This document shows, one piece after another, positions 1 to 33,865 of a stretch of 33,865 nucleotides of DNA (position 1 is the stretch's first letter; every line of letters begins with the position of its first letter). The notes below the pieces were generated by a model. That model saw only the letters and a list, made by a program, of their open reading frames with translations, was not told the origin of the DNA and ran no database searches. This DNA comes from a virus. The DNA is taken from IMG/VR virus record IMGVR_UViG_3300006162_000006, positions 1 through 33,865 of that record. One strand, 5' to 3'. The position numbers and the translations under genes are program-made.

Positions 1-90
1 TTGCCTTTACAGGTTCTCCTGCTATTGATAATACACCAGTAATATATTATCCAGCGCTTCCTGTAATGGGTCTTGCTAACTATGAATTCG
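1..90. repeat. Terminal direct repeat (left copy), circular assembly overlap
   Basis: Bases 1-90 are identical to 33776-33865. The reading frame that begins at 33400 continues in phase into the ORF ending at 2051 when the two copies are merged, so this is the overlap of a circular (or circularly permuted) assembly opened inside a gene. It is most likely an assembly k-mer overlap; a true 90-bp terminal redundancy cannot be excluded from sequence alone. Confidence 0.95.
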
Positions 91-26033: not shown

Positions 26034-26591
26034 TTATCCTGCCTGTTCAAAGTCGGTTATTTTAAGTTGGTCGTGTTTTGGTTTATAATTCTTTAGATTA
26101 GACGCGCGCCTATTTTTTAGATTTTCACTATGGGTAGTCCAGCGACAATTATCTTTTGAATAACCCTTATTATTATCTATGCGGTCAATTTCAAATCCTT
26201 TTGGTCGATCTCCCATATCTGCATAGAAGTTCTTAAAATCCTTCCATTCTTCGCAAATTGTTATTCCTCGACCACCATAATATTCAAATTTAGTATGATT
26301 TGGATTTGTCGTTCTTTGCATTATACATTCCCAAACGGCATATGTTAGCGAGCGTGACATTTTATGTTTTGAAGATCCACAAGTTCTACATTTTAATGAA
26401 TCACCAAATCTCAAACGAATTCCCTTTAATATACGTTGAAATCCACATTTACATTGTACCAAATAATGTTTTCTTTTTTCAGCCATTTTGACCTCATTAA
26501 TGACAGTCCAATCACCAAAAACATCACCAGGATTTATAACTTTTTTGCAATTTGCTCCAATAGACTCCCCAGAATTAATTACATCATTCAT
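26034..26591 (-). CDS. HNH homing endonuclease, phage type with zinc ribbon, 185 aa
   Basis: Free-standing HNH nuclease placed just before the intron-rich capsid gene but on the opposite strand. Residues 47-71 form a zinc ribbon (C47-x-C49 ... C68-x-x-C71). Residues 83-162 have the phage HNH layout: 'YAVWECIMQRTTNPNHTKFE', 'YYGGRGITICEEWKDFKNFY', 'GFEIDRIDNNKGYSKDNCRW' and 'ENLKNRR'. The D-R-I-D and N-C-R-W motifs form the active centre. Start ATG 26591 with AAGGATAATTGC upstream. Such enzymes spread themselves by cutting genomes that lack them; the target may lie in or near the capsid gene. Confidence 0.85.
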   Translation of the reverse strand: MNDVINSGESIGANCKKVINPGDVFGDWTVINEVKMAEKRKHYLVQCKCGFQRILKGIRLRFGDSLKCRTCGSSKHKMSRSLTYAVWECIMQRTTNPNHTKFEYYGGRGITICEEWKDFKNFYADMGDRPKGFEIDRIDNNKGYSKDNCRWTTHSENLKNRRASNLKNYKPKHDQLKITDFEQAG

Positions 26592-26797: not shown

Positions 26798-29367
26798 ATG
26801 TCAATTACTACTACAAGTAGTTTACCGGCGCCAGTTCAGCAAAGCTTTAGTTATAAGTTGCTTAGCGTCCCGGTTCCGAACATGATTCATTGCCTGTAAG
26901 TTGTGAATCGAAAACCCTCTCTGATTGACTTGGATCTCCCACTGGGACGACAAGGCGGAAGCGAAAGCACCGTGAACGACTAAGCGAGAGGGCGCTTTAA
27001 AAAGCGATGCGATAGTCTGAACTCTATGGCAACATAGAGAAGTTGGATCGAAGAATCTGACTCGCCTAGCAATAGGTCATAAAAGTAACAGAATGAAAAT
27101 CCCGGCGATGAAAAAAAATATGCCTAGGAATGGTGGAACAACGCTCAGGATGCGTAGATACAACCCATTAAATACTGCCATGGTTCCATTAGGAAATAGC
27201 GGTGTCACGCCTAGAATGAGTGGGCGTGTAAAATCTTCTCTGATAGACTTGGAAACCGTAGTGACTAATTAGTTAACCGGCGACAAGGGGCAAGATTATG
27301 AGTTTTTTATCAAATTTTTTAACACAGCAAATGATATCAAAAATTGTTAATAGCAGTAGAAAACAAAATAATCAGCCTGAACGTAGTAAGCGAGAAGACC
27401 CTTATGATAATTGGAAAGCTCCTCAAGAAAAATGCTTCCATGAATATCCTAACAATACGGATAGTTATAGATATTTTTCACAACGTGGCTGCCGATGTAA
27501 AAGGGATGCGGTACTCTGAACATTGTGGAAACACAGTGAGGGATAAGTAGAGAAAGTCCCCGCCTCGTATGAGGTCATAAAAGTAACAGAATTGCCTCCA
27601 CAAAACTTAACTGCAATAGATATCGATGCTAAGATATCGTTTTACGGTAAATAATAGGTGCCGTATGAGTTTATCTGATTAAGACCTATGTACAGATAAA
27701 CGAGCAGGTTAATTTGGCCTGCTTTAAACCCACTCTGATTGACTTGGACCTCCTTATAGGAAGACAGGGCGGAAGCGAAAGCACCGTGAACGACTAAGTG
27801 AGAGGGCGCGAAAGCGAAGCGATAGTCTGAACTTCATAGTAATATGAAGAGGATTCTCCGAAGAGGGAGTCCCGCTCGAAAGAGTCATAAAAGTAACAGA
27901 TTTGCACATTACAAAATCAAGACCCTAAAATGAATGGGGTCGTTAAATCTTTTCTAATTGACTTGGAAACCGAAGCTTAAGAGCCGGCAACAAGGGCCAA
28001 TGACAAGATTTAAGGATTATTTTTTAAAGGATGCAAATGACAACGAGAATTGAGTTTACGACTAGCCAAAACACATTCATTGCGAATGGCAATAGATTCA
28101 TCAGAGAGTTTATTGCTTCCAAGTTTTGTGGAATAGGTTTTTCTAAATTTTATCATATTCTCACAATGCTCTTTTTTGATAACAAGATATGGAAGTATTT
28201 GTTCACATATATCAAGCAATCTATCTCCAGTTGCAATCCAAGTGAAAACTTCTCTTTCAAATTTTTTAGAAGAAGTATATCTGGAAACAGCCGAGGCAGT
28301 GCCACTAAATATATTATCAAGCCACTCCATCAATTTATAATCAGTGTTATCAATTTTAAGCAAACCTCTAAAATGTTCGGTGACATAACCATCACCAGCC
28401 TTTTTAGGTATTTTTCCAAGCCAAAAGCATCCTTCACCATCAACAATTCCAGCCATATAAGCAAGATCACTTTCTTTATGAATTGTTGGTACAAAATCCT
28501 TAGATCTACGGTAATATTTTCTTCGTTCTTTCATAATATATCCTCTATAATTAAACAAAACTACGGTATAATTATACACGAAGCAAAATTACTAGTCAAG
28601 GCTGAACGACTAAACGAAAAGACTTCTAGAAATAGAAGATGCGATAGTCTGACCACGATTCGATAAGATCGTGAGGGAATGCCGAAGAGCTTCCCCGCCT
28701 AGAAATAGGTCATAAAAGTAACAGAATGGTTCTCAATGAGTGCGCCGCTCGTTTAGGCGTATCTCTCCGCCAAACAGAAGATCAATTAACGCGTGATATG
28801 CTTGCATCTACCGCGTCATTTATCAACTGTACTGGTGGTGTTAATGGTGATAATCCTACTGAAATTACTCGTTCAGATGTTGATACGGTAGTTCGTACAC
28901 TTCTCAACAACAATGCTTATACAATTATGGATAACATTGAGGGTGAAGATAAGTTTGGTACTGCACCAGTTCGTGATGCGTACTTTGCTTTGTGTTCTAC
29001 TCAACTTACGGGCAACTTAGACAACGTTGCTGGTTTCATTCAAAAGAACCAGTATCCGGCGCCTATGAATGCTTTACGATCAGAGTGGGGAGCTATTGGC
29101 AACTTAAGATTCCTTATTTCTAGTATTGGGTCTTTTTTTGCTAATGCTTCGTCTTTAGGGCAAAACGTGTACAACATCTTTTGTGTTGGCATGGAGGCTT
29201 ATGCTTGCATCGAACAAGATGGATATAGTGCGGCATTCATTTACAGACCACCAATTTATGATGGTCCATTAGCGCTCAACGTCAGCGTTGGGTACAAATT
29301 TGCTGAAGTTCCACGGATCACTAATGATCTTTGGGTGATTAACCTTCGTGCAACCCAAGCGGTTTAA
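26798..29367 (+). CDS. Major capsid protein, N4-gp56 family, interrupted by four group I introns and a 35-nt insert (spliced 316 aa)
   Basis: Exons by reading frame plus P1 pairing are 26798-26890, 27096-27212, 27595-27648, 27684-27709, 27905-27926 and 28729-29367; together 951 nt, 316 codons plus stop. The spliced protein begins MSITTTSSLPAPVQQSFSYK. It runs through 'NMIH|KIPAMKK', 'GNSGVTP|PPQNLTAIDIDA', 'SFYG|TYVQINEQV' and 'NQDP|VLNECAARLG', and ends in 'YDGPLALNVSVGYKF'. These are the conserved blocks of the N4-gp56-type HK97-fold coat family, in the right order. All breaks fall in the conserved N-terminal third, the usual target of homing introns. AAAGGA precedes the ATG. Removal of the 35-nt segment by splicing is inferred from the frame, not proven. 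Confidence 0.88.
26891..27095 (+). ncRNA. Group I intron 1 (205 nt, no ORF)
   Basis: Self-splicing ribozyme. P1: exon GATTCAT (26884-26890) pairs with GTGAATC (26903-26909), with U.G at the splice site. P3: CCCTCT (26915-26920) with AGAGGG (26987-26992). P7: GACTA (26978-26982) with TAGTC (27013-27017). P8 hairpin lies between, with a P9 hairpin after. The 3' end 'TAAAAGTAACAGAATG' ends in G. Shares a 31-nt core block (26954-26984) exactly with intron 4. Confidence 0.93.
27213..27594 (+). ncRNA. Group I intron 2 (382 nt, ORF over the core)
   Basis: P1: exon CACGCCT (27206-27212) with GGGCGTG (27222-27228), U.G at the splice site. P3: CTTCTC with GAGAAG (27392-27397). P7: AGTA in 27384-27390 with TACT near 27512, a compensated change compared with intron 1. 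The 3' end is 'TAAAAGTAACAGAATTG'. Its 5' part matches intron 5 ('GACTTGGAAACCG', 'CCGGCGACAAGGG'). A 73-codon ORF lies across P6-P8. Confidence 0.9.
27298..27519 (+). CDS. Intron 2 ORF, small Cys/His protein overlapping the ribozyme core, 73 aa
   Basis: ATG 27298 lies 7 nt after AAGGGG. The frame runs from the P6 loop through P7 5', P3' and P8, and stops with the TGA inside P7 3', so the DNA is used both for ribozyme and for coding. The product starts MSFLSNFLTQQMISKIVNSS; the C-terminal part (CFHEYPNNTDSYRYFSQRGC followed by RCKRDAVL) has a Cys-His ... Gly-Cys-Arg-Cys pattern resembling short Cys-rich ORFs of mobile phage elements. It may be a maturase-like helper, a decayed endonuclease or fortuitous. 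No full nuclease motif is present. Confidence 0.5.
   Translation: MSFLSNFLTQQMISKIVNSSRKQNNQPERSKREDPYDNWKAPQEKCFHEYPNNTDSYRYFSQRGCRCKRDAVL
27649..27683 (+). other. 35-nt core-less insert with group I-type guide sequence
   Basis: Splits the capsid frame between Gly (GGT, 27646-27648) and Thr (ACC, 27684-27686). It is not a multiple of three and contains TAA and TAG in frame. ATAGGTGCCGTA (27654-27665) is complementary to the joined exons TACGGT+ACCTAT in 11 of 12 positions. The single exception is the G.U at the splice position that every group I P1 needs. GTTTATCTG (27669-27677) is also complementary to CAGATAAAC of the next exon (27693-27701). The insert ends in G, as group I introns do. 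No P3, P7 or P9 can fit, so any splicing must use a core elsewhere. Confidence 0.75.
27710..27904 (+). ncRNA. Group I intron 4 (195 nt, no ORF)
   Basis: P1: exon AGCAGGT (27703-27709) with GCCTGCT (27717-27723), U.G at the splice site. The core block 27768-27798 is identical over 31 nt to intron 1, followed by P3' (GAGAGG), a P8 hairpin (GCGCGAAAGCGAAGC region) and P7 3' 'GATAGTCTGAAC'. 3' end 'TAAAAGTAACAGATTTG'. Splits the codon for Val (GT|C). Confidence 0.92.
28010..28534 (-). CDS. LAGLIDADG homing endonuclease encoded antisense inside intron 5, 174 aa
   Basis: Start chosen at ATG 28534 with AGAGGAT upstream; the frame is open 15 codons further but without a start signal. Residues 24-35 (LAYMAGIVDGEG) are a LAGLIDADG helix, followed by 'CFWLGKIPKK' and, later, 'LLKIDNTDYKLMEWLDNIF' and 'WIATGDRLLDICEQILPYLV', the usual alpha/beta fold. 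One motif at this size means a homodimer. It should cut intron-less capsid genes near the exon 4/5 joint. It is read from its own consensus promoter on the strand opposite to the capsid gene, so its transcription does not depend on the capsid mRNA and may even oppose it. Confidence 0.9.
   Translation of the reverse strand: MKERRKYYRRSKDFVPTIHKESDLAYMAGIVDGEGCFWLGKIPKKAGDGYVTEHFRGLLKIDNTDYKLMEWLDNIFSGTASAVSRYTSSKKFEREVFTWIATGDRLLDICEQILPYLVIKKEHCENMIKFRKTYSTKLGSNKLSDESIAIRNECVLASRKLNSRCHLHPLKNNP
28571..28599 (-). promoter_or_regulatory. Promoter of the intron endonuclease
   Basis: Read leftward: -35 TTGACT (28594-28599), 17-bp spacer, -10 TATAAT (28571-28576). The -10 sits in GTATAATTATACAC (28566-28579), identical over 14 nt to the palindrome at the RHH promoter (4630-4643). 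Confidence 0.8.
28729..29367 (+). CDS. Major capsid protein, exon 6 (C-terminal 212 aa)
   Basis: Longest exon of the N4-gp56-type coat. It enters directly after the G of intron 5 at GTT (VLNECAARLGVSLRQTEDQL); the ATG three bases upstream belongs to the intron and is not a start. It contains the conserved 'LTRDMLASTASFINCTGGVN', 'AYTIMDNIEGEDKFGTAPVR', 'LRSEWGAIGNLRFLISSIGS' and 'YSAAFIYRPPIYDGPLALNV' blocks. Uninterrupted up to TAA; the next structural gene follows after AAGGAG. Confidence 0.93.
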   Translation, partial: VLNECAARLGVSLRQTEDQLTRDMLASTASFINCTGGVNGDNPTEITRSDVDTVVRTLLNNNAYTIMDNIEGEDKFGTAPVRDAYFALCSTQLTGNLDNVAGFIQKNQYPAPMNALRSEWGAIGNLRFLISSIGSFFANASSLGQNVYNIFCVGMEAYACIEQDGYSAAFIYRPPIYDGPLALNVSVGYKFAEVPRITNDLWVINLRATQAV

Positions 29368-33400: not shown

Positions 33401-33865
33401 TGGCTTATGATCGTTTTCTTATTGCTCCAATAAATACAGGTTTACAAACTGATCTACGACCTTGGCTCATAGCAGAAGATGCATTTACTACTTTAACAAA
33501 TGCCTATGTATTTCGGGGACGAGTTAGAAAGCGATTCGGTTCAATTTATATGAATCAAACGCCATTATCTTCCCGATTGGGCGTTGCTTTAACTCCTACA
33601 ATTATGGCAGGCGCAGCAACGGGAACCGTACCAGGAACTGTTAATCCATTACAATTTGGACAAGCTTTTTCTATAGGTACTGAAATATTTACTGTTCAGG
33701 CATTAGGAAATCCAGTTACTATGCTTGATACTGGGACAACAACAACACATACTTTTGATACTACTAGTGGAGTATTTGCCTTTACAGGTTCTCCTGCTAT
33801 TGATAATACACCAGTAATATATTATCCAGCGCTTCCTGTAATGGGTCTTGCTAACTATGAATTCG
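33400..33865 (+). CDS. Tail nozzle/stabilisation-like structural protein, N-terminal 155 codons (continues at window start)
   Basis: ATG overlaps the preceding stop (TAATG). Encodes MAYDRFLIAPINTGLQTDLR, then 'PWLIAEDAFTTLTNAYVFRG' and 'RVRKRFG', an N-terminus of the nozzle/stabilisation type. The frame stays open to the end of the window and continues in phase at base 3 of the window (the last 90 bases equal the first 90), giving 808 aa in total. Described further at 1-2051. Confidence 0.78.
   Translation, partial: MAYDRFLIAPINTGLQTDLRPWLIAEDAFTTLTNAYVFRGRVRKRFGSIYMNQTPLSSRLGVALTPTIMAGAATGTVPGTVNPLQFGQAFSIGTEIFTVQALGNPVTMLDTGTTTTHTFDTTSGVFAFTGSPAIDNTPVIYYPALPVMGLANYEF
33776..33865. repeat. 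Terminal direct repeat (right copy)
   Basis: Identical to bases 1-90. See the left copy; the duplicate should be counted once when the genome is closed to about 33,775 bp. Confidence 0.95.

Follow-up and report, generated by a model that had tools for sequence, protein, structure and literature searches.

A group I intron is known in a phage capsid gene, that of mycobacteriophage LittleE (PMC3706429), and engineered group I 'spliceozymes' (Tetrahymena) have been reported to remove other introns (PMC4094466, PMC4509937). Here we analysed the whole of an IMG/VR virus record, IMGVR_UViG_3300006162_000006 (33,865 nt, referred to as the window), in which a major capsid protein gene is interrupted by a 35-nt insert, AAATAATAGGTGCCGTATGAGTTTATCTGATTAAG, at 27649–27683. 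Two further systems bear on such an insert. Group III introns of Euglena are degenerate and are thought to rely on catalytic parts from elsewhere. In T4 gene 60 and in the byp elements of yeast mitochondria, a short non-coding gap of tens of nucleotides, with RNA structure and stops, is bypassed during translation.

Our analysis suggested that the insert is very probably a non-autonomous ('satellite') group I-type mini-intron, spliced in cis by a neighbouring ribozyme. Like phage group I introns (for example those of T4 td, nrdB and nrdD and of the LittleE capsid gene), it has a U before the 5' splice site, a P1/P10 guide and a terminal G. In contrast to them it has no P3–P9 core and carries an added tether to its neighbour, whereas the downstream partners of such inserts are ordinary group I introns. 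In spliceozymes a group I core removes a different intron and recognises both of its splice sites, as is proposed here; but spliceozymes are engineered and act in trans, while the mini-introns are natural, are proposed to be removed in cis, bear the guide on the intron to be removed and are tethered to the P1 of the ribozyme. The Euglena group III introns are derived from group II and have no retargeted tether to a neighbour, unlike the group I-like mini-introns. Compared with T4 gene 60 and byp, the mini-introns show no consistent match of take-off and landing codons, on removal restore conserved residues exactly at a group I-type joint and need a downstream intron. The literature searched, which did not extend to subscription journals, contained no natural example of a group I-type intron that lacks its core. 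Between self-splicing introns and a shared splicing machine, the stage usually postulated is one of introns that have no catalyst themselves and are served by a ribozyme encoded nearby; the case in the window is small, a 35-nt mini-intron and a 195-nt intron on ∼330 nt of RNA. If this reading is true, short frame-breaking inserts in phage genes that are annotated as frameshifts can be functional introns.

The 35-nt insert and its pairings

The capsid exon ending in ...TTT TAC GGT stops at 27648 and the frame resumes with ACC TAT GTA at 27684, so that the insert splits the protein at SFYG/TYV. The earlier note had described this break and the 35-nt insert from the letters alone, and its description was correct base for base; our own delimitation rested on the sequence, spliced alignment and relatives (all coordinates refer to the plus strand unless otherwise stated). 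The 5' exon strand TACGGT (27643–27648), which ends in U, pairs with the guide strand GCCGTA (27660–27665) to give a P1 of 6 bp with a U.G pair at the joint; P1 sequences elsewhere differ and still pair. The adjoining guide strand ATAGGT (27654–27659) pairs with ACCTAT (27684–27689) as a P10 of 6 bp, contiguous with P1, giving 12 positions over the joint, and a G ends the insert. This arrangement of P1 and P10, which had also been claimed before, was found to be exact in the sequence and recurrent in relatives. Three nucleotides past the guide, the strand GTTTATCTG (27669–27677) forms a helix of 9 bp with CAGATAAAC in the next exon (27693–27701), a target that adjoins the 5' exon strand of the downstream intron's P1, GAGCAGGT (27702–27709), itself paired with GCCTGCTT (27717–27724). 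With the 12 positions of the guide, 21 of the 35 nt of the insert are paired to flanking exon. The further pairing pointed out in the earlier note was thereby confirmed, and it proved to be the covarying tether. In both the minimum free energy and the centroid folds of the segment 27636–27733, exactly the mini-intron P1, the tether helix and the downstream P1 appear, next to one another (–28.2 kcal/mol, z = –4.07), which is more than chance would give.

The insert was compared with what defines a group I intron. A 5' exon ending in U and paired to a guide G was found in the window insert and in all 45 related inserts described below, and the P10 of the window insert is contiguous with P1 and accompanied by a terminal G. 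A P3–P9 core of its own, with a guanosine site in P7, was absent; inserts of 28–59 nt show no trace of a core and have no room for it, which agrees with the earlier statement that a ribozyme core cannot fit in 35 nt. Without the defining core the insert is by definition no group I intron, yet, judged by its pairings, it appears to work like one.

After removal of the insert, the predicted 316-aa protein aligned over its full length with uninterrupted capsid relatives (the best 80 of 580 IMG/VR candidates), with a best identity of 95%. The residue at the joint was Gly in all aligned relatives, and Gly-Thr was present in nearly all. A comparison with intron-less homologues at this codon had been proposed earlier; the relatives read through the joint, and removal restores the conserved protein exactly. 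Among the related inserts 42 of 45 hold an in-frame stop, and their lengths are mixed modulo 3, which indicated that the inserts must go before or during translation.

Two explanations that dispense with splicing were weighed against these data. In the first, the insert would be retained as a control element for splicing order or expression, with the capsid made from a variant or from split chains. The RNA structure is conserved, excision itself is something we infer, and other frame breaks occur in some relatives (L091, L234), all of which would fit retention; but hundreds of relatives have the capsid exons of both sides conserved and fused, and the guide, whose P10 spans the joint, has the geometry by which splice sites are recognised. 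Retention was hence judged highly improbable. In the second, ribosomes would take off at Tyr UAC (27643–27645), pass over the insert and land at Tyr UAU (27687–27689), like the bypassing known from T4 gene 60 and the byp elements. The insert is indeed short and contains stops, and in the class of inserts at codon 88.0 Tyr codons stand on both sides. However, this bypass would drop the Gly-Thr kept in the relatives, no landing Gly codon lies near the Gly GGT, and the inserts at codons 86.1 and 104.0, read by hand, have no matched flanking codons. A bypass element should have matched take-off and landing codons and lose nothing conserved, and the insert did not show this.

A recurrent class of mini-inserts

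About 50 distinct inserts of the same design, 28–59 nt long, were found in other IMG/VR phages, where they occupy several sites of the capsid gene and also occur in a gene for a portal protein and in one for an unrelated capsid protein; these are scan counts and give lower bounds. The search combined a guide pattern, a scan for intron 3' ends, a wider guide scan and then a spliced aligner. The guide pattern retrieved inserts in contigs L084/L085 and L086, and at the same codon of L083 a full intron that shares the guide. From the readings of the spliced aligner at least 45 distinct mini-inserts of 28–59 nt were obtained. Their P1 has 6–8 bp and ends in U.G, their P10 has 3–6 bp and is contiguous with P1 in nearly all, and the 3' nucleotide is G. 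Most lie at codon 88.0 and the rest at 81.0, 86.1, 91.2 and 104.0, with other P1 sequences (for example GATTGGT/GCCAATC, GTGGAT/GTCCAC, GAGGGT/GCCCTC and TTCGGT/GCCGAA). In the long inserts (53–59 nt), an apparent extra closing helix joining the two ends of the insert was seen by eye, with strands GGAGG/CCTCC in L107, AGAGG/CCTCT in L311, TTGCAAG/CTTGCA in L217, GCCAC/GTGGC in L294 and GGGG/CCCC in L306. On a quick capsid tree the mini-inserts were scattered, the main class requiring 20 changes at fewest, five of them forced by well supported branches.

Codon 88.0 was also found to be occupied by full group I introns, of 706 nt in L083, 217 nt in L172 and 749 nt in L235, and where the guide was read (L083, L172) it is similar to that of the mini-inserts. 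Full introns at this codon suggest that the mini-inserts were born by core loss, or the reverse. The same introns could be taken to mean that the insert is a normal intron whose middle was lost in assembly, the outcome that the earlier note had regarded as fatal to its proposal. This was contradicted by the dozens of separate contigs with related inserts: ∼50 distinct mini-inserts come from independent contigs of different metagenomes and have insert-specific covarying tethers, and the probability of an artefact was considered negligible.

Mini-inserts were also sought irrespective of gene, with a detector that required the P1 and P10 guide plus a tether 5–10 nt ahead of the 5' splice site of a full intron. 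Of the 214 full introns in the first set, 45 were preceded by a detected mini-insert (38 of the 45 were already known), versus 3 of 428 shuffles; in a second set, newly retrieved through the J1/3–P3 motif, the counts were 10 of 118 and 1 of 236. In this second set, L348 and L360 have mini-inserts in a P22-like portal gene (phrog_156), with tethers that are not the same and that pair in each case, and L377 has one in an unrelated capsid gene. For each of the two genes, uninterrupted relatives ran through the predicted joint in 80 of 80 cases, and in both the tether abuts the downstream P1 with a gap of 0 (GCAGGGT and ACTTGAGT). For the portal gene the detector's position for the downstream 5' splice site was too late by one base, and the YAGSQTF of its relatives places it after GCAGGGT. 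Detector matches in L103, L168, L229, L320 and L381 were at chance level or at senseless positions and were not counted.

Inserts of 19–20 nt at '119.0' in L091, L153 and L234 were likewise rejected as mini-inserts, being in fact stop-start breaks. In these contigs a 4–5 nt TAATG/TATG insertion near capsid codon 123, upstream of the codon-144 intron, breaks the frame and gives an in-frame ATG, possibly reflecting a split, reinitiated capsid protein.

The downstream intron and the tether

In the window, a 195-nt intron without an open reading frame (27710–27904) starts 26 nt downstream of the insert. A full group I intron no more than 30 codons downstream was found in 34 of 34 contigs (hand-counted) that had a mini-insert at 88.0 and enough DNA, in a set of loci taken by the guide pattern alone, among the matches listed; L277 and L282 end too early to be counted. 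The full introns of this set lie at 96.2, 104.0, 104.2 or 116.2. In L249, L254, L303 and L306 the aligner had misplaced the start of the downstream intron, which was placed by its P1 instead. Full introns at the same sites without a mini-insert were found in L093, L101, L110, L161, L092 and L106. Full introns thus occur without mini-inserts but, in this set, not the reverse, which indicated a one-way dependence.

Among the downstream introns, 27 short ones showed covarying P3, P4–P6, P8 and P9 helices, which marks the downstream introns as group I; a P2 was not found. In the 195-nt intron, P3 is formed by 27729–27735/27800–27806 and P7 by GACTA (27792–27796)/TAGTC (27823–27827). With a P1 ending in U.G, a P3/P7 pseudoknot, P4–P6, P8 and P9, it has the features of a group I intron, although it is not recognised by Rfam. 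Many full introns behind mini-inserts, namely the 96.2 introns of L086, L098, L129, L234, L254, L270, L285, L290, L292 and L295, have in their P1 loop a conserved stretch around GTTCTTTGAAATTTCTTGRTTTTGTAAGCAGAT that resembles the boxA antitermination element; this stretch is absent from the 195-nt intron of the window.

The tether was evaluated in a fixed register chosen beforehand, g+9 (3 nt past the 6-nt P1 guide strand) versus exon positions 9–17. In 25 distinct mini-inserts at 88.0 with the intron at 96.2, 93.8% of the tether positions were paired, versus 23–43% in slid registers. The covariation was 0.294 for the tether (shuffle mean 0.053) and 0.121 for P10 (shuffle mean 0.018), and in neither case did any of 1000 shuffles reach as high; P1 is invariant in this class and uninformative on covariation there. 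The gap between the tether target and the downstream P1 helix was 0 nt in 31 of 44 cases and at most 1 nt in 41, and the linker from guide to tether was 2–4 nt in 40 of the 44. Whichever site the downstream intron occupies (96.2, 103.0, 104.0, 104.2 or 116.2), the target shifts with it and stays beside its P1. For mini-inserts at 88.0, a different tether, CTGATTTTGTAA/TTACAAAATCAG, pairs just 5' of the intron at 104.2 in L112; with the intron at 104.0 (L217, L294), GTTCTGCA/TGCAGAAC pair against GTTCTGTA/TACAGAAC; and with the intron at 116.2 (L084) the tether is ACCAAGAC/GTCTTGGT. Sequence comparison shows the mini-introns, their pairings in a constant geometry and an obligate intron downstream of them. 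Bypassing would leave the P10-like pairing with its terminal G, the downstream intron in every contig of the set and the intron-tracking tether unexplained, and it was regarded as very unlikely.

The earlier note had first suggested that a neighbouring intron, for example the one 26 nt downstream, lends its core for excision, and the obligate downstream intron and the covarying tether abutting its P1 argue for this proposal. It had also considered a relic kept active in trans. Were the core provided in trans, it could belong to another intron of the gene or to an excised intron, and there is something in favour of this: the four full introns in the capsid gene of the window are of one family, and engineered group I ribozymes excise introns in trans (PMC4094466). 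But the tether pairs with the exon abutting the adjacent downstream intron wherever that intron is sited, and among the matches listed in the unbiased set no mini-insert was without a downstream intron. Action in trans is therefore unlikely, and the relic became the less likely version of the earlier idea, the tether being aimed at the adjacent intron.

The reading in which the adjacent ribozyme acts in cis would apply to a natural phage class, and we consider it probable that these introns of 28–59 nt have no more than a guide plus a tether that can be retargeted, and that they are removed by the adjacent group I ribozyme, one ribozyme thus serving two introns. For splicing, the mini-intron would contribute no more than its P1/P10 guide and the terminal G, and the core would come in cis from the full intron 26 nt downstream. 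The gap of about 0 implies that the tether, pairing over 9 bp with the exon beside the downstream P1, and the native P1 could stack as one continuous helix, a composite that would position the mini-intron splice site in the shared core. The mini-intron P1 would hang on its 3-nt linker at J1/3 (UUUAAA), the point of entry of the native guide strand into the core, and would replace the native P1 there. In the first step guanosine would cleave after U27648; in the second the exons, aligned by P10, would be joined at G27683; and after removal of the mini-intron the ribozyme would excise itself. The splicing chemistry, the order of events and the swapping of P1 are what we infer from the pairings. 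The position of the tether would explain the restriction of mini-introns to sites upstream of and near a full intron, as well as the change of tether with the intron site.

Three points weigh against this mechanism. Catalysis with a P1 from outside the native guide, and with the 3' splice site in the loop of the tether, is unproven for these introns. The tethers of L144, L179 and L171 are weak or abut the downstream P1 imperfectly. Finally, the spliced aligner rewards a U before and a G at the end of an intron, and the ends of the mini-introns are therefore not independent evidence; the contiguity of P1 and P10 separately picks the same joint.

Layout of the capsid gene and the record

The major capsid protein gene (phrog_1357-like, P22/N4 type) extends over 26798–29367, as judged from spliced alignment, a PHROG match and uninterrupted relatives, and its six exon pieces are 26798–26890, 27096–27212, 27595–27648, 27684–27709, 27905–27926 and 28729–29367. 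Besides the 35-nt insert it is interrupted by four full-size introns. Intron 1 (205 nt, 26891–27095) was placed by spliced alignment and covariation, and intron 2 (382 nt, 27213–27594) and intron 5 (802 nt, 27927–28728) by spliced alignment; the fourth is the 195-nt intron described above. Rfam recognised no intron in the window, either at the gathering threshold or at E≤5, so that the intron boundaries were set by alignment. Four clear group I introns between 26891 and 28728 were thus missed, and the annotation of such introns in phages is probably incomplete. Among named phages, the capsid protein has only distant relatives, and no relatives were found for the two other genes that carry mini-inserts.

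A LAGLIDADG-type endonuclease gene (28010–28579, minus strand), with a Pfam score narrowly below the cut-off, lies inside intron 5 and is oriented opposite to the capsid gene. An HNH endonuclease gene (26034–26591, minus strand) is located upstream of the capsid gene and not within its introns. The record also codes for a P22-type portal protein and a terminase. A direct repeat of 90 bases was observed at the two ends of the window (1–90 and 33776–33865), and the record probably represents a complete genome, either circular or circularly permuted.

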